In this document: positions 7,094 to 21,245 of the stretch, in pieces
How the letters are laid out: each line of letters begins with the position of its first letter
How positions within the stretch are numbered: the stretch's first letter is position 1
Source: a bacterium
Lineage (GTDB): Bacteria > JAHJDO01
DNA length: 64,000 nucleotides
Direction of reading: 5' to 3'
Assembly (NCBI GenBank): GCA_030652805.1
Contig: JAUSPT010000032.1
Coordinates: 1-64,000 of the forward strand
Program-made: the position numbers and the translations under genes
Notes under the pieces: model-generated
What the model saw: the letters and a program-made list of their open reading frames with translations, nothing else
What the model was told of the DNA's origin: nothing
Databases searched by the model: none

Positions 7094-8317
7094 TTACCTT
7101 GTCTTATCCAATTCAAACGCTTTATGAAGGACTCGTGCGGCTTTTTTGCCTTCTTTCTTATCCACCAAACATGAAATCTTTATTTCAGACGTGCTTATTG
7201 TTCTGATATTTATTTTATTTTTACCAAGTATTTGAAACATCTTTGCAGCAACACCTGCATGGGTTCTCATACCAATACCTACTATTGAAATCTTAGCTAT
7301 ATTTTTATCACATTCTATTTTCTTAGGATTAACAGTGCTTTTTAATTTATCAGTAACATCAAGTGTTCTCTTTATATCTTCTTTTGCAACAGTAAAAGAT
7401 ATGTCGGCCACTCCTTTTGCGCTTATATTCTGAATAATCATATCTACGTTTATATTTTCATCTGCTATATTATTGAAAATTGTTCCTGCAATTCCAGGCT
7501 TATCTGGAATACCAATAATTGATATCTTTGCCTCATCCTCGTTTAATATAACACTTCTAACTAATGCCTCTTCCATTTTTCCCCTCTCTTTTGATACAAC
7601 CACTGTACCTGTTTTGTTAATAAAGCTGGATCGTATATGAAGCGGTACTTTAAATCGCTGAGCTATCTGCATTGAACGCGGCGCCATTACCTTTGCCCCA
7701 AGGCTTGCCATTTCCAGCATTTCTTCATAAGTGATGCTTTTAATCTTCTTTGCCTGTGGAATTACCCTTGGATCTGATGTAAAGACTCCTTCAACATCAG
7801 TATATACTTCGCACTCATCTGCGCCTAGAGCTGCAGCAATTGCAATAGCACTCGTATCTGAAGCTCCACGTCCCATGGTTGTTACATCATTATTAATACT
7901 TACTCCCTGAAATCCCGCAATAACTACAATCTTTCCTTTTTTAAGTTCTTCTCTTACTCTCTTTGCTCCAATCCTCAAGATTCTGGCCTTTGTATGGGAT
8001 GTGTCAGTAATTATTTCTACCTGAGACCCTGTAAAGGATATTGCATCATATCCTAAAGAGTGTATAGCCATTGTAATTAGTGCTATTGAGATTCGTTCTC
8101 CTGTAGAAAGGAGCATATCCATCTCTCGTCTTGATGGAGAATCTGTTATTTCTGCTGCCATTTTTATCAAATTGTCAGTAGTTTTCCCCATAGCAGAAAC
8201 GACTACTACCACATTATCATATCTATCTCTAGCCTTAACAATCAGTTTCGCTACATGCTTGATTCTCTCTGCATTTGCTACTGACGTTCCACCATACTTC
8301 TGCACAATAAGACTCAT
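7094..8317 (-). CDS. lysC: Aspartate kinase
   Basis: Aspartate kinase phosphorylates aspartate, the first step toward lysine, threonine and methionine. The 407 residues hold an amino-acid-kinase domain (KYGGTSV at 7-13, FQGV, GRGASDTSAIA, EVYTDVEGVFT) and two C-terminal ACT domains from about residue 265 (ISIIGIPDKPGIAGTIF and ISIVGIGMRTHAGVAAKMF). The ACT pair is the usual site of feedback inhibition by lysine or threonine. It lies 3 nt after thrC in a hom-PAP2-thrC-lysC run and 35 nt before hisB. Confidence 0.96.
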   Translation of the reverse strand: MSLIVQKYGGTSVANAERIKHVAKLIVKARDRYDNVVVVVSAMGKTTDNLIKMAAEITDSPSRREMDMLLSTGERISIALITMAIHSLGYDAISFTGSQVEIITDTSHTKARILRIGAKRVREELKKGKIVVIAGFQGVSINNDVTTMGRGASDTSAIAIAAALGADECEVYTDVEGVFTSDPRVIPQAKKIKSITYEEMLEMASLGAKVMAPRSMQIAQRFKVPLHIRSSFINKTGTVVVSKERGKMEEALVRSVILNEDEAKISIIGIPDKPGIAGTIFNNIADENINVDMIIQNISAKGVADISFTVAKEDIKRTLDVTDKLKSTVNPKKIECDKNIAKISIVGIGMRTHAGVAAKMFQILGKNKINIRTISTSEIKISCLVDKKEGKKAARVLHKAFELDKTR

Positions 8318-8320
8318 AAT

Positions 8321-9394
8321 TTATATTCCTATAATTCTTAATATACTATTTATGTTCGGTTCTACTGTTATAGGTTTCTCAACGCTTCCTATTGCGCGAT
8401 CCGGATCCTTTAAACCATGACCAGTAAGAACACAAACTGTTATCTTTTCTGAATGATTAGCTGAATTCTGCTGCTTTTTAAAATAATCATCCTTTGCCAA
8501 TTTAATTATCCCTGCCACACTTGCTGCTGAGGCTGGTTCAACAAAAACCCCATCCTCCTTTGCCAGTAATTTATAGGCTTCGAGAATCTCATCATCTGTA
8601 ACTGCATATATTAGTCCTGATGACTCATCCCTTGCTTCCTCAGCCTTTTTCCAGCTTGCCGGATTACCAATTCTTATTGCAGTTGCAATAGTCTCAGGAT
8701 TACGAACAATCTCCCCTCTTACAATGGGCGCTGCTCCCGCTGCCTGAAAGCCCAGCATTTTAGGAAGATTTCTAATTTTACCTGCTTCCTTATATTCCTT
8801 ATATCCCATCCAGTACGCAGTAATGTTTCCCGCGTTTCCGACTGGAATTGCATGAAAGTCCGGCGATCTTCCACCAAGCTGGTCACAGACTTCAAAAGCA
8901 CCCGTCTTCTGCCCTTCTATTCTATATGGATTTATGGAATTTACCAGAGTGATAGGATAATTATCTGTTATCTCCCTGACTAGTTTGAGAGCATTGTCAA
9001 AGTTCCCCTTAATGGCAATAACCTTTGCGCCATGGATAAGCGCCTGAGCAAGCTTGCCCATTGCAATTGCACCTTCTGGAATTAATACAATGCAATTCAG
9101 CCCCGCTCTGGCAGAATATGCAGCGGCCGATGCTGAAGTATTGCCTGTTGATGCGCACATTACTGCCTCTGCGCCCTTCTCCAACGCCTTTGAAATTGCC
9201 ATTGTCATTCCACGATCTTTAAAAGAACCTGTTGGATTCGCTCCTTCAAATTTTAGAAATACTCTTGTTCCTGTTATATTTGAAAGCTTCTCAGAAAAAA
9301 TTAAAGGAGTATTACCTTCATTTAACGTTACTATCGGAGTAGCTCGAGACACAGGAAGATATTTTCTGTATTGATTTATAACACCATTCCACAT
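8321..9394 (-). CDS. thrC: Threonine synthase
   Basis: ThrC converts O-phosphohomoserine to threonine with PLP. This 357-residue protein is the short bacterial class. The PLP lysine sits in GSFKDRG (Lys59), the phosphate-binding loop is [18 protein letters not shown], and [16 protein letters not shown] is typical. The C-terminal region has [10 protein letters not shown]. It lies between the PAP2 gene (3 nt) and lysC (3 nt). HomB-type kinase (thrB) is not in the window. Together with hom and lysC it covers most of the aspartate-to-threonine branch. Confidence 0.95.
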
Positions 9395-9397
9395 AAG

Positions 9398-9943
9398 CTA
9401 ACTCGCTTTCTTAAAATCTAATCTTTGACTTATTATTAAAATTAGTTTTGCTGATAGATAACCGATCATGCTGCCTGCAACTATATCTAATGGATAATGA
9501 ACTCCTATATAGACTCTGGAGAATGCAACCAGAAAAGCCAATAAATAAAATAATAGCCATTTTTTATAATAACCAGACAACACTGCAGCCGTTGAAAAAG
9601 CAGTCTGAGAATGGCCTGATGGAAATGAGCCTACATATAATTTTTGTCCATATATATTCATATCCATAAATTGAGACAATGGCCTGGGTCTCTGAATAAG
9701 CTCTTTCAAGATATGAACAACTATGCCTCCCAAAAAGATAGTAATTAGTGATATGACGAGTATTAATAAAGCATTTTTTCTGTCAAAGATTAATATGCTT
9801 ACTACTATAAGTGGGATTAGGAAAAAACCATTTCCTAGTTGCGTCAATGTGAACATTACGAATCCCATACATGAATTCCAGAGATGCTGATTAATAAATA
9901 GGAAAATTGACTGGTCTATTGATATAATGTAGTCAAGCATCAA
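9398..9943 (-). CDS. PAP2-family membrane phosphatase
   Basis: This 181-residue integral membrane protein has the PAP2 acid-phosphatase signature in full: KELIQRPRP, then PSGHSQTAF with the catalytic His, then SRVYIGVHYPLDIVAG. Five or six hydrophobic segments surround it. Family members remove phosphate from phosphatidate, undecaprenyl diphosphate or similar lipids on the periplasmic face; which one is used here cannot be told. It is wedged between hom (4-nt overlap) and thrC (3 nt), an unexpected partner for amino-acid genes. Confidence 0.88.
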   Translation of the reverse strand: MMLDYIISIDQSIFLFINQHLWNSCMGFVMFTLTQLGNGFFLIPLIVVSILIFDRKNALLILVISLITIFLGGIVVHILKELIQRPRPLSQFMDMNIYGQKLYVGSFPSGHSQTAFSTAAVLSGYYKKWLLFYLLAFLVAFSRVYIGVHYPLDIVAGSMIGYLSAKLILIISQRLDFKKAS

Positions 9944-11193
9944 TCTTCAACTCGTATGATCACGCTTTTTCTCTTAATAATATCCAACTTATCAATCTCT
10001 CTTATTGCTAAGCAAATATCCTTTTCCTTTGCCTCATGGGTCATCATAATAATTGGAACAGCGCCGCTTTGTTTTCTATCCTTTTGGATTACTGAAGCTA
10101 TACTAATCTTACTCCTGCCCAATATGCCGGAAATTTTCGCAAGGACACCCGGTTTATCTACTGCTGAGAATCTAATATAATACCTTAATTTATTCTCTGA
10201 TGTTTCTTTAATATCTAAACGATTGGTAAAGGAATAATCATCCATTACATTGCTTTTTGCGCTCATCTTTCCAACAATGTCAATAATGTCTGAGTAAACA
10301 GCATTGGCCGTTGGCATCTGTCCTGCCCCAAGCCCATAGAACATCATCTCTCCGATACTGTCGCCACGTAAATATATAGCATTATACACATCGGACACAG
10401 AAGAAAGTAAATGTCCCTTGGAAATTAGAACTGGATGCACACGAACATCCAACTTATTTTCTTCTCTATTTGCTATGGCTAGCGGTTTAATTACATATCC
10501 TAATTCCTCAGCGTATTGAATATCCTCTAAAGTTATATTTCTGATTCCCTCTACATAAATGTGCCCCATATCAACCCTTGTTCTATAAATGATAGAGCTG
10601 AGAATTGCTATTTTATGAGCAGAATCAACACCGTCTATATCAAGAGATGCGTCAGCTTCCGCATACCCTAAATCTTGAGCGTCTTTTAATGCCGCGGAGA
10701 AAGTCTGACCATCCAGAGACATCCTGCTAAGTATAAAATTAGATGTTCCATTAACTATTCCTAAAACAGATGTTATATCTGATGAACGGAAACTGTCTCT
10801 GACAGCTTTTATAATAGGAATGCCCCCTGCGACACTTGCTTCAAATTTTATATACACATTTTTATCTTTTGCCGCCTGAAAGATCTCATCACCATGAATC
10901 GCAAGAAGCGCTTTATTAGCCGTTACAACATGTTTCTTGTTTTTTAGTGCAGTAAGTATAAACTTCTTTGCAGGTTGTATGCCTCCTATTAACTCTACAA
11001 TTATATCAATTGAGGGATCATTCAACACTCTGTTTACATCAGTAGTGAGTAAAGCTTTATTAATCTTCACAGATCTAGGCGTTGTGATATCTAAATCCAC
11101 TACATGTTTTAACTCTACCTGTTTCTCCTGCTGAATTATTTTTACAAGACCTGTGCCTATTGTTCCAAACCCTATAAGCCCAACCTTTTTCAT
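9940..11193 (-). CDS. hom: Homoserine dehydrogenase
   Basis: Hom reduces aspartate semialdehyde to homoserine. The N-terminal NAD(P) fold carries GFGTIGTG. The catalytic domain shows VVTANKALLA, GGIPIIK, GIVNGTSNFIL and LGYAEADASLDIDGVDSAHKI (partly listed). An ACT domain occupies the last 80 residues (YYIRFSAVDKPGVLAKIS). An in-frame ATG at 11214 overlaps the preceding stop, but GGAG precedes the ATG at 11193, so that start is preferred (417 residues). It heads the hom-PAP2-thrC-lysC cluster. Feedback control through the ACT domain is usual for the family. Confidence 0.94.
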   Translation of the reverse strand: MKKVGLIGFGTIGTGLVKIIQQEKQVELKHVVDLDITTPRSVKINKALLTTDVNRVLNDPSIDIIVELIGGIQPAKKFILTALKNKKHVVTANKALLAIHGDEIFQAAKDKNVYIKFEASVAGGIPIIKAVRDSFRSSDITSVLGIVNGTSNFILSRMSLDGQTFSAALKDAQDLGYAEADASLDIDGVDSAHKIAILSSIIYRTRVDMGHIYVEGIRNITLEDIQYAEELGYVIKPLAIANREENKLDVRVHPVLISKGHLLSSVSDVYNAIYLRGDSIGEMMFYGLGAGQMPTANAVYSDIIDIVGKMSAKSNVMDDYSFTNRLDIKETSENKLRYYIRFSAVDKPGVLAKISGILGRSKISIASVIQKDRKQSGAVPIIMMTHEAKEKDICLAIREIDKLDIIKRKSVIIRVED

Positions 11194-11213
11194 CCCGGTC
11201 TCCACTGATTTCA

Positions 11214-11402
11214 TTAGAAAACTTGAACCATATCTTTTTTAGGTACATATATAATGACAGGATCATTATGCCCTTTTTTAGCAGCTTTTTCATAAACTTC
11301 ATTAACATGATCTCCGCTACTAATAACTGTATCGTCTTCAAAGCTTTTAAGTGCTACATACTGCCCACTATATTTTTTTTCTTTTACCAACTGAACGGTC
11401 AT
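11214..11402 (-). CDS. DUF5678 small protein
   Basis: This protein of 62 residues matches the DUF5678 pattern as I know it: YSGQYVALKSF, then VISSGDHVNEVYEKAAKKG and a final hydrophobic stretch VIIYVPKKD. The family has no established biochemical function. It is common as a tiny stand-alone protein in candidate-phylum genomes. It lies directly upstream of hom on the same strand. About 95 nt of DNA with no evident gene separate it from the preceding lipoprotein gene. Confidence 0.7.
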   Translation of the reverse strand: MTVQLVKEKKYSGQYVALKSFEDDTVISSGDHVNEVYEKAAKKGHNDPVIIYVPKKDMVQVF

Positions 11403-11498
11403 TGTTATACCCTTCCCCTTTTTTCAGCCTATTAGTCACTTCGCTTTTACCTTAGTATTACGATATCACAATGGGATATGTCCCTATTTATTCATTAA

Positions 11499-11795
11499 TC
11501 AATCATTTTCGTGTACTGCAGATACTCTGCCATAAATGAACTTAACATAATAAACTTTTAAAATCCCTTTATAAACCCACCATTCTTCTTTTACTTCTAT
11601 TCCAGAAAAAGAAGTAGAATGAGAAATGCGTTTACGTGTAGGTGCACCACAAAGAGACATAACTTCACTTTGGGACATACCAATCTTAACTTTTTTTGAA
11701 ACATCTCCAGAGAGAAGACCGCAGGAACTAAGAAGAAAAGAACATATGAGAGTTATTGCAATCCAGAGTTTCTTGCCCTTCAGTTCATTTTTCAT
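11499..11795 (-). CDS. Small lipoprotein, SmpA/OmlA- or DUF2845-like
   Basis: The protein of 98 residues has a signal peptide ending in a lipobox LLSSC, so it should be lipidated and anchored in the envelope. The mature part contains KIGMSQSEVMSLCGAPT, matching the G.s..eV...cG.P motif shared by BamE/SmpA-like and DUF2845 proteins, then strand-like segments. An ATG at 11816 is upstream, but GGAAGGGG lies just before the ATG at 11795. That ATG overlaps the stop of the preceding small gene (ATGA), suggesting coupled translation. Confidence 0.6.
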   Translation of the reverse strand: MKNELKGKKLWIAITLICSFLLSSCGLLSGDVSKKVKIGMSQSEVMSLCGAPTRKRISHSTSFSGIEVKEEWWVYKGILKVYYVKFIYGRVSAVHEND

Positions 11796-14198: not shown

Positions 14199-15053
14199 TC
14201 AGCTTGCAGATGCAAACAGCTCATCTGCCTTATATGAACTTCTGACAAAAGGACCTGAAGCAATAATAAAACCTTTATCTTCGGCAAATTTTTTATATTC
14301 CTCAAACATTTCAGGCGTAATAAATTCTTTAACAGGAAAGTGATTTTGTGACGGAGATAAATATTGACCGAGCGTTAATAAATTACAGCCAACGCTGCTT
14401 AAATCGTCCATAACTCTTAAAACTTCTTTTTTTGTTTCTCCAAGCCCCAGCATTATACCTGATTTAGTGACTATTTTTGAATCAAACTCTTTTATCATTC
14501 CAAGCAAATTAAGAGATATTCTATAATTTGCTTCCTGCCGCACATTCTCATATAAACTTGGAACAGTCTCGAGATTATGACCAAATACATCAGGCTTGCT
14601 CCGAGCAACCTGTTCTACACAATCCTCTTTGCCTTTAAAGTCAGGCGTAAGAATCTCTATTACAACATCCGGGATATTGCTTCTAATATCCATTATAACA
14701 TCTGCAAATTGGCCCGCTCCATAATCCTTGAGATCATCTCTTGTTACGGAAGTTATAACAACATATTTTAATCTTAATTCATAAACCGCCTTGCTTAATC
14801 TTTTCGGCTCATTTTTATCAACTGACAAAGGGATGCCATGCTTTACTGCACAAAATCTACAGTTTCGCGTGCAAACATCCCCGAGTATCATAAAAGTCGC
14901 AGTATGACGAGAAAAACATTCGCCTATATTGGGACACTTTGCGCTTTCACATACTGTATTTAAGCTTAGTTTTTTAAGAATATGCCTTGTCTCTTCTGTA
15001 GCCTTTATATCAGGTATTCTTTTTTTGAGCCAATCAGGTAATCTTTTATGCAT
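14199..15053 (-). CDS. lipA: Lipoyl synthase
   Basis: LipA is a radical-SAM enzyme that inserts two sulfurs into a protein-bound octanoyl group. Both iron-sulfur motifs are intact: the auxiliary cluster Cys35, Cys40 and Cys46 in CESAKCPNIGEC, and the radical-SAM CX3CX2C at Cys61, Cys65 and Cys68 (CTRNCRFC). The C-terminal RSSYKADE supplies the conserved serine that ligates the auxiliary cluster. Length 284 is normal. Its start overlaps the end of lipB, giving the usual lipB-lipA pair, and it lies 75 nt before the lipoyl-domain gene. Confidence 0.97.
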   Translation of the reverse strand: MHKRLPDWLKKRIPDIKATEETRHILKKLSLNTVCESAKCPNIGECFSRHTATFMILGDVCTRNCRFCAVKHGIPLSVDKNEPKRLSKAVYELRLKYVVITSVTRDDLKDYGAGQFADVIMDIRSNIPDVVIEILTPDFKGKEDCVEQVARSKPDVFGHNLETVPSLYENVRQEANYRISLNLLGMIKEFDSKIVTKSGIMLGLGETKKEVLRVMDDLSSVGCNLLTLGQYLSPSQNHFPVKEFITPEMFEEYKKFAEDKGFIIASGPFVRSSYKADELFASAS

Positions 15054-15699
15054 ATCTCATATCTCTACTGAAACAATTCCCAAATTCAGTTATAAGAATT
15101 TGTTTTGTTTTCTGCATATCAGTTTGTTTTTCTGTTAATTCATCCAGAGACGTTACTTTTTTATCTCTTATACCACACGGAGTTATCATCCTAAAATGTT
15201 CCTTGTTCGGATTAATATTTATACAAAATCCGTGAAAAGTCGTCCATTTACTCACGCCAATACCTATTGCCGCAATCTTTTCATTTTCTATCCAAACGCC
15301 AGTGTAATTATTTATTCTGCCAGCCGCTATTTTGAAATGCGACAAGAATCTAATTATTACCTCTTCTAAGCTCCTCAGATAAAGATGTATATCCTTGTTC
15401 CATTGTGCAAGATTTATAATTGGATAACCTACTATCTGACCAGGCCCATGATAGGTTATATCCCCTCCCCTATCTACCTCGTAAACTTTTATTCCATTTT
15501 TTTTCAGAACCTCATTACTGACAAGGATATTTCCCCTGCCGCCTTTTCTGCCTATTGTAAATGTTGGAGGATGTTCTGTTAATATAAGTGTGTCTGGAAT
15601 CTCATTCTTAATCCTTTCAGACAGTATTTTTTTTTGAAGATTATAAACTTCCATATAATCCTTAAGTCCAATGTCTAACACATTACATACTGCTTTCAT
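15046..15699 (-). CDS. lipB: Octanoyltransferase
   Basis: LipB moves octanoyl groups from acyl-carrier protein to lipoyl domains. Visible motifs: RGGDITYHGPGQIVGYPI, then VSKWTTFHGFCININ with the catalytic lysine, and TPCGIRDKKVTSL with the catalytic cysteine. Length 217 fits the family. GGAAGGG precedes the ATG at 15699. It is the first gene of lipB-lipA. The 55 nt upstream separate it from the attC-like site and the PHP gene, which look foreign. Confidence 0.95.
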   Translation of the reverse strand: MKAVCNVLDIGLKDYMEVYNLQKKILSERIKNEIPDTLILTEHPPTFTIGRKGGRGNILVSNEVLKKNGIKVYEVDRGGDITYHGPGQIVGYPIINLAQWNKDIHLYLRSLEEVIIRFLSHFKIAAGRINNYTGVWIENEKIAAIGIGVSKWTTFHGFCININPNKEHFRMITPCGIRDKKVTSLDELTEKQTDMQKTKQILITEFGNCFSRDMRYA

Positions 15700-15754
15700 C
15701 TAAATGCCCTTCCTCTTTGTCACAAAATCTATTCATAATTTTTAATTATTTTTT

Positions 15755-15809
15755 TATAACGTGCGTCTGAGGCGCGCTGTCAGGCGTCGCCTCCAACCGT
15801 CTTGTTAGA
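15755..15809 (-). repeat. attC-like recombination site (integron cassette type)
   Basis: A 55-nt imperfect inverted repeat starts TATAAC (15755-15760) and ends GTTAGA (15804-15809). The terminal boxes pair 5 of 6, a mismatched spacer follows, then inner boxes pair again through CTGAGGCG against CGCCTCCAA, with a short loop. Two paired boxes separated by an unpaired spacer, with AAC/GTT ends, is the architecture of integron attC sites. The stop codon of the PHP gene lies in the centre, as is common for cassette genes. It shares 20 of 22 nt with 47862-47883. No integrase gene is present. Confidence 0.5.
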
Positions 15810-16670
15810 AGATCTTTTCTTGTCAGTTCTCGGCTCCAAGCACCAGAAATCATCCGTGATTCCCGCGCTCTCCAACATCTGGCTGGTTTTCTCAAAATCA
15901 ATGTCATAGTGAGCGGTATGGCAGTCTGAACCGATGCTGAGACGAACTCCCTGCGATTTTAGTTCAGCCAGATATTCCAGGTATTGGGAGACAAATCCTT
16001 CTGGATAGTGTGGATTCAACAGATTTGCCCCGATATTGATTTCGACCGCCGTATTATGCTTGATCGCCGCTGCGGCGAACTCTCGATGCATGGATCTCGG
16101 AATCACGCTGAAGTCATCAAACCATGGTTCTGCTGGATAATTGTTATTTTCGTCTTTCCAGTGTCCCATCCACCACCAGGGATGTGCGACAATATCTACC
16201 AGGGGATGAGTTGCTAGAAACATGTTTTGTCTGTGATAATCTCGGATCACGGCCTTACGTTCCATCGGAACGTACATAGGCCAGTGTGTGCCGCCGATTA
16301 CGTATTCGATCTGGTATTTCGCTATGTCTTCTGCAGTGATTCCTATCGCAAGGGAACATCCTTGTTGACCACCCGAACGCAAGCCGTAGACAGGCTTATC
16401 GTGCTGACCGCTCGCGATTTCGTCAAGTTCCCATTGCGACACACAACTCGCCTCAACCCCGAAATGAAAACGAGAGGAAGGGGCGGTGAACAGGAATTCC
16501 TCTCGAGACCTGGCAATATCGGCCAGGTTGTACGGAGTGTGCAAATGATCCGTTAATCCAAAATCGCAAATATCCTTTTCCTCTGCTTCACGAACAAGAT
16601 CTGAGACTGTCATGCAAGCCCCGTCGCATGAGTTCTGTGAATGGATGTGCCAGTCGGATACCAACTTCAT
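15780..16670 (-). CDS. PHP-domain metal-dependent hydrolase
   Basis: This 296-residue protein has the PHP metal-site layout: DWHIHSQNSCDG at the N-terminus, LTDHLHTPY, an HFGVEAS segment, IGGTHWP, DIVAHPWWW and a final IGSDCHTAHYD. Known PHP proteins are phosphoesterases (such as histidinol phosphatase) or polymerase-associated nucleases; the substrate here is unknown. Codon use is visibly G+C-richer than in the lip and lpd genes on either side. It ends inside an attC-like site and pairs with the DegT gene 207 nt upstream, so lateral transfer as a cassette is likely. Confidence 0.75.
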   Translation of the reverse strand: MKLVSDWHIHSQNSCDGACMTVSDLVREAEEKDICDFGLTDHLHTPYNLADIARSREEFLFTAPSSRFHFGVEASCVSQWELDEIASGQHDKPVYGLRSGGQQGCSLAIGITAEDIAKYQIEYVIGGTHWPMYVPMERKAVIRDYHRQNMFLATHPLVDIVAHPWWWMGHWKDENNNYPAEPWFDDFSVIPRSMHREFAAAAIKHNTAVEINIGANLLNPHYPEGFVSQYLEYLAELKSQGVRLSIGSDCHTAHYDIDFEKTSQMLESAGITDDFWCLEPRTDKKRSSNKTVGGDA

Positions 16671-16877
16671 TCCGTCGACCTTCTAACATTAATCAGTGAA
16701 CATTTAGTTCTACTTTAATATTACCATAGCTCAGATTGCTTCGTCGTTCCAAAAGATTTCTGAACTTTGCAGCAAAATTATATTTCAACTTATACAAACG
16801 CAAGAATAATTGCAATAGAGAGCATTGACATCATGGTAGAGGTTACAATAATACTGCCATTATAAAGGACGCTGCTT

Positions 16878-18104
16878 TTAATCAAAACGTTTGATGGTCT
16901 TTGCGAAGATTTCCGCTTGACGATCCGCTTCAACAGTATCAAAATAATTGGTTTTCAGCATGATGATCCATGGCTGGATTTTCTCCCAGACAGGACAACT
17001 TCCACGCTCATAGCGGGGTAGCTTGCCTGCGAGCTGAGGATAACGATCCTTGTTCTCATCAACGGACTTGTTCAGGTTTGCGAAAACAGGTTCAAGATGA
17101 ACAGGTTGATATGATCCGTAAAAACCGTCGCCTCCAAGCTCAATAAAAGTGGCTAAGAAGTCTGACCACACAATATCATTACGCGTGATCCTTGCTGCGT
17201 AGTTCCAGTAAGCATTGACGTACCCTTCTGGGTTTTTCTGAGGAACAATCCACTCACAGTCATTAACGACACTGTCAAATACATTAGCGCTGTATGTGCG
17301 CATCTTTGCCAGTTCATCGATACGCTCAAGTTCAGCTAGCGCTACCGCAGCGGCTATTTCAGGCAGACGCTGGTTCCAGCCTATACTATCGTGTCTCTGG
17401 TAATTCGGTTGGCAACGCAACTGTTCCGAGACTACATTATCGCCCGGTTTAAGAGTAAGATCTTTAAATCCAATGGTAGCTGCCTTCCTAGCCGCAAGCG
17501 CCAGTGTATCATCTGAACAGATCAAGATACCGCCGTCACCGCAGGTCAGTGTTTTAGAAGACTGAAAACTGAAGCTGGCAAAATGGCCGATGGAGCCGGT
17601 TACGCGTCCTTTGTAGTAACCCAATATGCTCTGAGCATTGTCTTCAATAACAACAAGGTTATGCTCTTCGGCTAATTCCATGATTGGATCCATATCAGCT
17701 GGCAATCCACAGATGGAAACAGGAATAATTGCTCGTGTTCGTGGCGTTATGTGCTTGCGGATGGCGTCTATACTGATAGTCCATGTATCAGGATCTACGT
17801 CAACAATTATCGGAATAGCATTGCAGTGCAACACTGCCGCCGGAGTTGAAAACACAGTAAAAGTCGGAACAATTACCTCATCACCAACCCCAACGCCTGC
17901 GGCCATAAGCGCGCTCTGCATTGTAGCAGTGCCGTTGCAGTGAGCTATGCCGTAAGTCTGTCCGAAACGTTCCGCAAATTCACGCTCGAGCCTAGCAGTC
18001 ATGCCCACAGAATGGGAATTGTGAAATCCAAAATCAAGAACTTGTTTCACATATTCATAGGACTTTGGTGCAACACGCGGGATCCTTTTGGGTAAATTAG
18101 CCAT
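16878..18104 (-). CDS. DegT/DnrJ/EryC1/StrS-family sugar aminotransferase
   Basis: This PLP-dependent protein of 408 residues belongs to the family that transaminates keto-sugars or keto-inositols. Landmarks: YGIAHCNGTATMQSALMAAG, VGVGDEVIVPTFTVFSTPAA (split across motif), VVIEDNAQSILGYYKG, and the PLP lysine in SFQSSKTLTCGDGG. Codon use is G+C-richer than the surroundings, as in the PHP gene. GGAGAA precedes the ATG. A perfect RYYYAAC box (ACCTAAC, 18141-18147) lies upstream. The 207 nt between it and the PHP gene hold no gene. No nucleotide-sugar genes are adjacent, so the substrate cannot be inferred. Confidence 0.85.
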   Translation of the reverse strand: MANLPKRIPRVAPKSYEYVKQVLDFGFHNSHSVGMTARLEREFAERFGQTYGIAHCNGTATMQSALMAAGVGVGDEVIVPTFTVFSTPAAVLHCNAIPIIVDVDPDTWTISIDAIRKHITPRTRAIIPVSICGLPADMDPIMELAEEHNLVVIEDNAQSILGYYKGRVTGSIGHFASFSFQSSKTLTCGDGGILICSDDTLALAARKAATIGFKDLTLKPGDNVVSEQLRCQPNYQRHDSIGWNQRLPEIAAAVALAELERIDELAKMRTYSANVFDSVVNDCEWIVPQKNPEGYVNAYWNYAARITRNDIVWSDFLATFIELGGDGFYGSYQPVHLEPVFANLNKSVDENKDRYPQLAGKLPRYERGSCPVWEKIQPWIIMLKTNYFDTVEADRQAEIFAKTIKRFD

Positions 18105-18174
18105 AAGACAATTCTCCTTTCTCTTATTATCTATTTAATAACCTAACAATTGATATACAAACCAAAAAATCAAT

Positions 18175-19563
18175 TCAGTGCTTTTTAGGCAAACTTATAG
18201 CAATATTATCTACATCCTCTGCTGCTTCCATAACTGCCTCAGACAGTGTTGGATGTGCATGGATTGTTTCTGCAAGTTCCCTGTATGTACATTCAGCCTT
18301 TATTGCTAGCACACACTCAGCGATCAGTTCTGTTGCATGAGGAGCAATCATTCTCACTCCCAAAATCTCATCCGTATCCTTGTCAGCTATAATTTTAACC
18401 AAGCCTTCTGTCTCTCCTATACACATTGCTTTCCCACTTGCCATTAGAGGGAATCTGCCTATCTTTATCTCATGAGTTTCTTTTGCTTTTTGCTCAGTTA
18501 AACCAACTCCTGCTACTTCAGGATCTGTATAAACACAGGATGGTATAGCCTTATAATCCATTTTTGAATCCATACCCATTATATGCTCCACAGCCACAAT
18601 TCCCTCCTTTGAAGCAACATGCGCAAGCATAGGGCCTGGCGTAATATCTCCTACCGCATAAATATGTGGAATATTTGTCTGCATATACTCATTTACAAGA
18701 ATTCTATTTTTATCCAGTTTTATTTGATTCTCTTCTAATCCAATTCCAGAAATATTTGAACTCCTTCCAACAGCAACAAGCACTCTATCTACTTCAAATG
18801 TCTTATCTCCTGACAAATATACATTTGCTGCAGAGTCTCTTTTCTCTACTTTATTAACTTTTGTCTGAGTAAAAACTTCAATGCCTTTCTTTTTAAAAAT
18901 GTTCTCAAGCTTACCTGCAATTTCATTATCTTCTTCCGGTAGTATATGAGTCATCATCTCAACTAGTCTTACTTTGACTCCAAAAGAATTGAAAATATCT
19001 GCAAATTCACAACCAATAACACCTGCGCCTATTATTAAAATACTTCCGGGCAGATTCTCACAAGAAAGAACCTCTCTGCTTGTCTGGATTATCTCCCCAT
19101 CTGTTGGAATATTAGCCAATTTCATAGGTTCTGAACCAGTTGCTATTATTATATTATCTGTCTCTACTTCAAATTGTTCAGAATTATCTGTTGCTTTTAT
19201 TATTCCTGAAGATGCAATTTCTCCTTTCCCTTTTATTATTTTAATATCATTACTCTTAAACAAAAATTCTATACCCTTTGTTAGCCTGTTAACAATCTGA
19301 TTCTTTCTATTTATTATCTTTTCATAATTCAAGGTTATATCAGAAATATTTATGCCAAAATTTTCTGTATTTTTAAAAGTCCTATATATCTTTGCAGAAT
19401 GAAGAATAGCTTTTGTGGGAATACATCCTCTGTTAAGACATGTTCCTCCAAGCACTCCATCCTTTTCAACAACACAAACCTTTGCTCCTAACTGCGCTGC
19501 TCTTATCGCCGCAACATAACCACCAGGTCCTCCACCAATTATTCCAATATCATATTTTGCCAT
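18175..19563 (-). CDS. lpdA: Dihydrolipoyl dehydrogenase (E3)
   Basis: This FAD-dependent protein reoxidises dihydrolipoyl groups of 2-oxoacid dehydrogenases or the glycine cleavage system. FAD fold GIIGGGPGG at 8-16, redox-active disulfide Cys42/Cys47 in GGTCLNRGCIPTKA, NAD fold IIGAGVIGCEFA, second FAD motif YAVGDITPGPMLAH, and the C-terminal HAHPTLSEAVMEA with the His-Glu dyad. An upstream start at 19581 exists, but GGGGAA precedes the ATG at 19563 (462 residues). It is separated from lipB/lipA by the foreign DegT-PHP pair. Confidence 0.95.
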   Translation of the reverse strand: MAKYDIGIIGGGPGGYVAAIRAAQLGAKVCVVEKDGVLGGTCLNRGCIPTKAILHSAKIYRTFKNTENFGINISDITLNYEKIINRKNQIVNRLTKGIEFLFKSNDIKIIKGKGEIASSGIIKATDNSEQFEVETDNIIIATGSEPMKLANIPTDGEIIQTSREVLSCENLPGSILIIGAGVIGCEFADIFNSFGVKVRLVEMMTHILPEEDNEIAGKLENIFKKKGIEVFTQTKVNKVEKRDSAANVYLSGDKTFEVDRVLVAVGRSSNISGIGLEENQIKLDKNRILVNEYMQTNIPHIYAVGDITPGPMLAHVASKEGIVAVEHIMGMDSKMDYKAIPSCVYTDPEVAGVGLTEQKAKETHEIKIGRFPLMASGKAMCIGETEGLVKIIADKDTDEILGVRMIAPHATELIAECVLAIKAECTYRELAETIHAHPTLSEAVMEAAEDVDNIAISLPKKH

Positions 19564-19577
19564 TATTCTTTCCCCTT

Positions 19578-21245
19578 TCACATTTTCTCAGGCGCAGATA
19601 TGCCAAGAAGCCTGAGTCCATTTGCCAGCACAATTCTGCTAGATTTAACAATCAACAACCTTGCAACTGTCAATTCTTTATTTTCAGTAACAACACGGTG
19701 TTTATTATAAAAATTATGAAATATCCCAGCAAGTTTTAGTAAATATCCTGCTATTCTGTGAGGTGCGTAAGTCAGAGCGCTGATTTCGCATATATCTTTA
19801 AATCCAGCCAATGTCTTTGCTAATTCAATTTCCTCAGGCTTATTTAGAAGCTCTGTATTGACTTTATCCGTTTGTCCTATATCAATTTTATCCTCTTCAG
19901 AATGTTTTAATATATTACATATCCTTGCATGCGCATACTGGATATAATAAACAGGATTTTTAGAAGACTTTTCCTTTGCCAGATTTAAATCAAAATCAAG
20001 ATGACTGCTCTGAGTTCTCATAAGAAAAAAGAATCTGGCAGCATCTTTGCCGACCTCCGCTACTAAATCTCTCATTGTCTCAAACCTGCCAGCTCTTTTA
20101 GACATTTTAATTTTCTCTCCACTGCGCATAAGATTAACCTGCTGAACTATAAAAACATCCAGCCATTTCTCATCAATACCCAATGCCTTCATAGCCGTTT
20201 TTAATTTTGCTATATGCCCGTGATGATCGGGGCCCATAAAATCAATGGCTTTATCAAATCCCCTCTCAAACTTATCAAGATGATATGCAATGTCCGCCAG
20301 AAAATAAGTTGGCGCTCCATTTTTTTTGATTAAAACTCTGTCTTCGTCGTCACCAAACTTTGTTGATTGAAACCACTCTGCATTATCTTTTTCGTATGTA
20401 AAACCACGCTCTTCTAATTTTTTCAAAGCATTAGTAATTTTGTCTGAATCATGAAGTGTTTTCTCGCTGAACCACTTATCAAACTTAACTCCAAAATCCT
20501 CCACATCGCGCTTTTGGTCGCCTAATATCCTTGAAAGATAAAAACTCCTGCATCTATTTTTCACATCATCATCTCTCTTGTTCAGCAAGCTCTTGCCATA
20601 TTCTTTATCCAGTTCTTCTGCCATATCCTTTACGTAGTCACCATGATAGCCTTCTTCCGGAAATGGAAAATCGGGATTGTATATCTGTTTATACCTTGCA
20701 ATAAGAGATTCAACAAATCTTGAAACCTGTTCTCCTGCATCGTTTATATAAAATTCCCTTTTTACGTCATATCCATTAAACGAGAGAATATTGCACAAAC
20801 TATCGCCAATAGACGCGGCTCTTGCGCTCACTACATTAAGGGGCCCGGTGGGATTTGACCCTACAAATTCCACAAGGATCTTTTTCCCCTCTCCCGTATT
20901 ACTTCTGCCATAATTCTCTCCTGCCAAAACAACTTCTTTAAAGATATCTATCCAGAACTTCTTGCTGATGTAAAAATTTATAAATCCAGGTTTAACCAGC
21001 AGAACTTTATCTATTAATAAATCTTTAGACAAGGACTGCTGAATATTTTTACATAACTCTTCACCTATACTAATTGGAGATTCTTTAAATTTATGCGAGT
21101 GCATCATTGCTGCGTTTGTTGAAAAATCACCAAATTTCTCATCTTTTGTTCTTTCTACTGAAACAAGCAGACCTCGGATAGAATATATTTTTTCAATACT
21201 TTCTTGAACTATTTTTATTATGTGTGTTTTCGCTTTGTTAATCAC
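19578..21245 (-). CDS. argS: Arginyl-tRNA synthetase
   Basis: This class I synthetase of 555 residues charges tRNA-Arg. The KMSK loop is intact (KMSKRAGRFETM), the catalytic GPDHHGHIAKL segment is present, and the C-terminal DALR domain is recognisable (YAHARICNIL, then LLKLAGIFHNFY). The HIGH signature is unusual: NPTGPLNVVSARAASIGD where most ArgRS have NPTGPLHVGHARN. The N-terminal Add1 domain is present. Its start overlaps the yqeK stop by 4 nt. The altered HIGH box does not look like decay because everything else is conserved. Confidence 0.93.
   Translation of the reverse strand: MINKAKTHIIKIVQESIEKIYSIRGLLVSVERTKDEKFGDFSTNAAMMHSHKFKESPISIGEELCKNIQQSLSKDLLIDKVLLVKPGFINFYISKKFWIDIFKEVVLAGENYGRSNTGEGKKILVEFVGSNPTGPLNVVSARAASIGDSLCNILSFNGYDVKREFYINDAGEQVSRFVESLIARYKQIYNPDFPFPEEGYHGDYVKDMAEELDKEYGKSLLNKRDDDVKNRCRSFYLSRILGDQKRDVEDFGVKFDKWFSEKTLHDSDKITNALKKLEERGFTYEKDNAEWFQSTKFGDDEDRVLIKKNGAPTYFLADIAYHLDKFERGFDKAIDFMGPDHHGHIAKLKTAMKALGIDEKWLDVFIVQQVNLMRSGEKIKMSKRAGRFETMRDLVAEVGKDAARFFFLMRTQSSHLDFDLNLAKEKSSKNPVYYIQYAHARICNILKHSEEDKIDIGQTDKVNTELLNKPEEIELAKTLAGFKDICEISALTYAPHRIAGYLLKLAGIFHNFYNKHRVVTENKELTVARLLIVKSSRIVLANGLRLLGISAPEKM

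Follow-up and report, generated by a model that had tools for sequence, protein, structure and literature searches.

How two genes richer in G+C than their surroundings came to lie between the host genes lipB and lpdA, and whether they arrived as integron gene cassettes, is the question raised by the window, a stretch of 64,000 nucleotides of bacterial DNA. On its minus strand the gene order is lpdA (18175–19581, TIGR01350, left of the site), a DegT/DnrJ/EryC1/StrS aminotransferase gene (16878–18104, PF01041), a PHP-domain phosphoesterase-like gene (15780–16670, 296 amino acids, PF02811 with 28.4 bits at a cut-off of 26.4) and lipB (15046–15699, TIGR00214, right of the site). A preliminary description had read the DegT–PHP pair as delivered jointly; both open reading frames and their composition (G+C about 0.48–0.50, surroundings 0.33–0.39) were borne out by our analysis. 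According to our best reading, to which we assign a probability of roughly 0.7, a PHP cassette sits here in one of a set of integrase-less, dispersed attI-like pads that hold cassettes. For comparison we made use of four congeners, the sole relatives of the window organism below domain level in the genome set used; of the five same-genus genomes (G000–G004), four are at least 90% complete and one is 62% complete.

The PHP cassette and its neighbour

The PHP gene is strongly supported as an integron gene cassette. Scanning one genome per species returned PHP homologues at 25 loci in many phyla. Those from Spirochaetes (L065, 89% amino acid identity) and Lentisphaerae (L070, 79%) start with the same GTTAGAAGG leader that lies at 16687–16679 of the window, and the sequence preceding it is unrelated to that of the window. 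Because homologues in other phyla start at GTTAGAAGG, the further box described earlier before the PHP ATG is the true left end, and the cassette therefore holds the PHP gene alone (15760–16686, minus strand; 927 nt from TTAGAAGG through the G of attC), that is, a single open reading frame with an attC at its 3′ end. As inserted, the attC-like sequence comprises 57 nt (15810–15754, minus strand, TTCTAACAAGACGGTTGGAGGCGACGCCTGACAGCGCGCCTCAGACGCACGTTATAA) with the PHP stop codon TGA (15780–15782) in its middle; it opens with the R″ box TTCTAAC (15810–15804), and its right end is G|TT (15760–15758), together with the right half of the platform described below. The cassette's left end is G|TTAGAAG, and the R″ box CTTCTAAC is reverse-complementary to GTTAGAAG at eight of eight positions. 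At L065 and L067, too, the stop codon falls within a terminal attC-like sequence.

The attC was judged by fold tests, by a boundary-complementarity permutation test and against positive controls from an intI-linked array. In its inserted form it only modestly beats shuffled sequences (z about −2). In a free circle, the cassette's own left end TTAGAAG would complete the attC across a junction predicted to read CACGTTAGAAGG, and the completed attC could fold as a single-stranded hairpin. Rejoined in this way, the sequence reaches z-scores of −3.8 for the top and −4.3 for the bottom strand, within the range of the control attCs from the G064 array, which adjoins a true intI (z −2 to −6). Fold tests and the complementarity of left end and R″ support the attC-like structure that had been proposed around the PHP stop codon. 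An arm-complementarity scanner recovered the G064 array and was too noisy in A+T-rich DNA for single sites, giving similar scores elsewhere in the window locus; an Rfam scan matched only RNase P and two tRNAs, none of them at the attC. Mean G+C does not differ between cassettes and host, and only the spread is wider among cassettes, so that an elevated G+C content does not identify them.

The DegT gene, a foreign-looking neighbour, is a separate arrival. The RYYYAAC box reported ahead of it is present (ACCTAAC at 18141–18147, reading GTTAGGT before DegT); by our own arithmetic, a degenerate 7-nt box is expected on each strand about every 0.9 kb at such a composition. The box is not a cassette end because no attC follows DegT: none was found between DegT and the platform or after the DegT homologue in G069, and no ACCTAAC lies behind DegT to pair with the GTTAGGT. 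The proposed order of core box, gene and attC thus holds for PHP, where boundary and fold tests bear it out, and is unsupported for DegT, so that the two genes were not delivered as a pair. No close DegT homologue was found among the four congeners; the homologue in G069 (64%) lies in a genome with IntI.

Beside lipB, a toxin-antitoxin-like pair (mazEF-like, assigned by eye) occupies DegT's place in G002 (L044:9761–10380, G002:C75), and another (vapBC-like, also by eye) is found in G004 (L045:8441–9093, G004:C50). A distant PHP paralogue, 31–33% identical over 164 amino acids, is present in G000 (L047, G000:C54:37880–38611) and G002 (L048, G002:C42:6006–6737). Upstream of another PHP homologue there is a very regular attC-like site (L069:712–771, CCCAACATTGGGGATGCAGGCGAC..).

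Dispersed pads with differing cargo

Immediately left of the PHP cassette lies one copy of a dispersed repeat of approximately 75 nt that ends in AATTAATGTT. This left half of the platform (16685–16765, minus strand; E 1.1e-17 with the sequence-only model R1) ends in AATG|TT, with the crossover after G16687. The right half (15722–15759, minus strand, TTATAAAAAAATAATTAAAAATTATGAATAGATTTTGT) is common to the orthologous G002 site at lipB and to an unrelated, non-orthologous G002 pad (G002:C62) in the form TTATAAAAAAA[TC]AATTAAAA..TTATGAATAGATTTTGT. An initial DNA search yielded 36 repeat matches across the five congeneric genomes; alignment of copies yields the consensus TATTTTTATTGAGGTTTTAAGCAATTTGAGCTATGGTAATATTAAAGTAGAAGTGAnTGTTCAATAATTAATGTT. 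With R1 (E ≤ 1e-3), each of the five genomes has 8–16 copies, the lowest number (8) in the 62%-complete genome and a dozen or more in every well-covered one. The same model found no copy in 54 genomes of other groups, and a search of viral contigs gave no match.

The copies diverge exactly after GTT, with nothing in common beyond, and each is followed by a different gene. An ATG-initiated open reading frame of at least 60 amino acids begins no more than 60 nt past the crossover in 36 of 42 copies (random positions: mean 2.5, maximum 7), the median gene start being about 15 nt past it. Most copies carry promoter-like hexamers: a TATGGT or TAGGGT preceded, at a spacing of 17 nt, by TTGAGG or TTGAGA. 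The −35-like element of the window copy is degenerate, and a simple promoter scan identifies no promoter there. The 30 positions immediately left of GTT rank with the most strongly conserved of the alignment, and an inverted repeat of TAAYATTAA and TTAATGTT is well kept. Sequence conservation and the crossover pattern at G|TT both fit a putative attI. About 16 R1 matches consist of the promoter-like left half only and lack the GTT end (G002:C62:47070–47130, G004:C19:18245–18300, G000:C26:13793–13846 and others), and other matches of the att-core half only, which gives the impression of two separable modules. Several platforms are adjoined by short repetitive palindromes (GACGAAGCAATCT.., GGGCAGCCGCAAGGGCTGCC..; window ~16735–16755, L187 ~3975, L195 ~4900).

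If the genes behind the repeat are integron cassettes, the reverse complement of the bases directly after GTT, with AAC behind it, should be found again at the gene end. Within 2.5 kb of 41 copies we found five perfect 6-nt matches where 0.29 are expected and seven 5-nt matches where 1.1 are expected, counts that were reached in none of 2,000 permutations. On the controls there were two 5-nt matches on the opposite strand and one on the upstream side. The matches lie mostly at stop codons and open readable attCs (G000:C99, G000:C87, G002:C62, G003:C104, G004:C7, G004:C48 and G003:C133, the last with seven of seven positions counting AAC). Four matched sites, when rejoined, have z-scores of −2.8 to −6.1, like the attCs of the intI-linked array. 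A recognisable R″ match is kept in only about 7–12 of the 41 copies, several cassette ends being eroded or absent.

The pads are inherited at fixed positions and their cargo differs between species. In G002, which is about 93% identical over lipA–lipB, the right junction (..CG|TTATAAAAAAATAATTAAAA) is identical to that of the window and the left flank is homologous, and the pad holds a URO-D family gene (PF01208) with a different attC in place of the PHP cassette; this site folds weakly when rejoined. A simple alignment of the left flank is weak (score 41, against 49 for the best of 300 shuffles), and model R1 finds it with an E-value of 4e-10. In G004 a third gene, encoding a vitamin B12-dependent methionine synthase activation domain (PF02965) and having an attC-like end, precedes lipB, a case that is suggestive only because its boundary match is poor. 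The arrangement, which would count against a cassette if it were the same in all relatives, thus differs among them. In five further pairs of orthologous pads (G003:C124/G004:C7, G000:C7/G003:C118, G003:C38/G004:C20, G000:C55/G003:C76 and G000:C34/G003:C122), about 1 kb of upstream sequence is 85–89% identical, the similarity reaching the GTT or stopping no more than about 30 nt short of it, and the 400 nt that follow show no relationship; in the first pair the downstream flank is shared as well. Since upstream flanks are shared and the DNA after GTT is unrelated, the pads were inherited in place with differing cargo.

One small cassette is 98% identical between G000:C70 and G002:C123 (L169 4850–5305, L174 3056–3512), above the approximately 93% usual for flanks of these two genomes, and the sequences just upstream of the platform are dissimilar. 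It encodes a 62-amino acid protein, 4-oxalocrotonate tautomerase-like by eye, and its terminal TTTCTAAT departs from the predicted R″ at a single base. Its G000 copy abuts an apparent tRNA-Leu gene.

Integrase, mechanism and alternative explanations

The search for intI in this genome was negative, as it was in the four congeners: TIGR02249 gave no match over its cut-off in G000–G004, and the recombination agent is therefore missing from these five genomes. Four of them being at least 90% complete, this absence is meaningful, if not proof. G000 encodes only two complete tyrosine recombinases, both XerC/XerD-like. A recombinase on G002:C121 was considered as the missing IntI and rejected, as it scores far below the cut-off and lies beside an apparent IS91-type transposase. 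True IntI occurs in six of the 11 genomes that hold PHP homologues. The integron integrases of G064 and G068 (L125:7498–8826 and L126:6112–7467, frames of 442–451 amino acids) carry about 120 additional residues N-terminal to the IntI domain, and the intI of G064 is preceded, on its own strand, by the attC array. The Spirochaetes genome with the closest PHP cassette contains a decayed IntI with four stops (L119, G059:C31:11099–11449).

On our preferred reading of a PHP cassette in a dispersed attI-like pad, an integron integrase acting in trans would have joined the cassette to a resident attI-like site at its G|TT. The left half of this site, approximately 75 nt ending in AATTAATG|TT, is present in a dozen or more dispersed copies, most of them with the promoter-like hexamers TTGAGG-N17-TATGGT. 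Insertion would leave the site's right half as TTATAAAA..., and an empty pad would read AATTAATGTTATAAAAAAATAATT; a search for empty pads via the right half matched only three known places and no clearly empty platform. The platform may serve as landing site and promoter at once, in which case the cassette gene would be expressed from it, and cassettes may move even at present. The integrase could have been lost, reside on a mobile or unassembled element, or be too divergent to recognise. We lean slightly towards an extended version, a distributed integron, in which an attI-plus-promoter module has multiplied to a dozen or more fixed pads whose cassettes are swapped between species by a non-resident integrase in trans.

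The main alternative is an attG hot spot, with the repeat an ordinary dispersed promoter element at which an integrase inserts off-target because a GTT lies beside the promoter. This would account for the copies with the promoter-like half alone and agrees with the lack of an integrase beside any platform copy read; insertions outside integrons are also described, as PMC12901181 relates from Loot et al. 2024. We nevertheless consider it unlikely, because the 30 nt left of GTT rank with the best conserved columns, a copy reduced to the att core (G000:C87) carries a cassette whose R″ matches, insertion is always at the same repeat base and the right half is common to two sites. The repeat could instead be the genus's own attC, which would make DegT (mazEF in G002) the first cassette and PHP the second. 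Its arms TAAYATTAA and TTAATGTT do pair in 94% of cells (21–58% when slid), and DegT is G+C-rich with a GTTAGGT box before it, but there is no covariation beyond shuffles, RNAalifold gives no consensus structure, many copies directly follow core genes read as plsY, ppdK, purN and ispA, and the GTTAGGT is without its ACCTAAC partner after DegT, all of which renders this version highly improbable.

That host XerC/XerD rather than an integron integrase insert single-stranded hairpin cassettes has a very slim chance of being correct: although the only complete tyrosine recombinases of G000 are of this kind, a crossover at G|TT with nothing shared beyond it is the pattern of integrons, and the PHP cassette has the same ends in G064, a genome with true IntI. 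Ordinary horizontal transfer combined with a fortuitous attC-like palindrome can appeal to the modest fold of the inserted attC and to the scanner's indifference within the locus; set against the exact ends shared in other phyla, the outcome of the R′/R″ permutations and the presence of another cassette at this junction in G002, its prospects are close to negligible.

Relation to known integron systems

An integron as described has one attI beside one integrase gene and a tandem array behind one promoter, and most cassettes in large arrays are silent. Should the dispersed pads be attI sites, every acquired cassette would stand first and be expressed at a fixed locus of its own, which would solve in another way the problem that large arrays leave most cassettes silent; attI could then spread independently of intI, and an isolated bacterial genus would join the known range of cassette exchange. 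In the open-access literature searched we found no description of multiple or dispersed attI sites.

The PHP cassette shares with integron gene cassettes its single open reading frame, an attC with complementary R″ and R′ that folds into R and L stems with extrahelical bases, the G|TT crossover and an occurrence in several phyla, but it is solitary and not part of an array beside intI. As a single attC without intI nearby, it qualifies as a SALIN; SALIN and CALIN are attC sites without integrase (PMC12690207, PMC8618304). Unlike these, the PHP site has on its left a conserved multi-copy attI-like repeat instead of arbitrary DNA. With attG insertions the pads have in common that chromosomal cassettes lie outside an integron and downstream of a promoter. 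Whereas attG sites are strongly diverged from classical att sites according to PMC12901181, which cites Loot et al. 2024, the target here is a sequence-conserved repeat in five species and lacks such divergence. An attI usually adjoins intI (PMC12901181, PMC8618304, PMC12690207), and the attI2 of class 2 integrons, with the core AATAAAATGTTRRRY, is present in one copy beside intI2 (PMC12901181). This core resembles AATTAATGTTRRRY of the platform, a likeness that is short and A+T-rich, and the platform differs in having many copies and no intI.

In delta-attI-type cassettes an attI piece replaces the attC behind the gene, and they are found inside mobile integron arrays (PMC12901181). A comparable arrangement is seen in G000:C99, where the attC left arm of one cassette is fused to a second platform att core; speculatively, this could be how platforms spread. 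On the same contig a stretch of 3.5 kb contains four platform copies, full or partial (L162 ~8077–11607, G000:C99:26076–29606).
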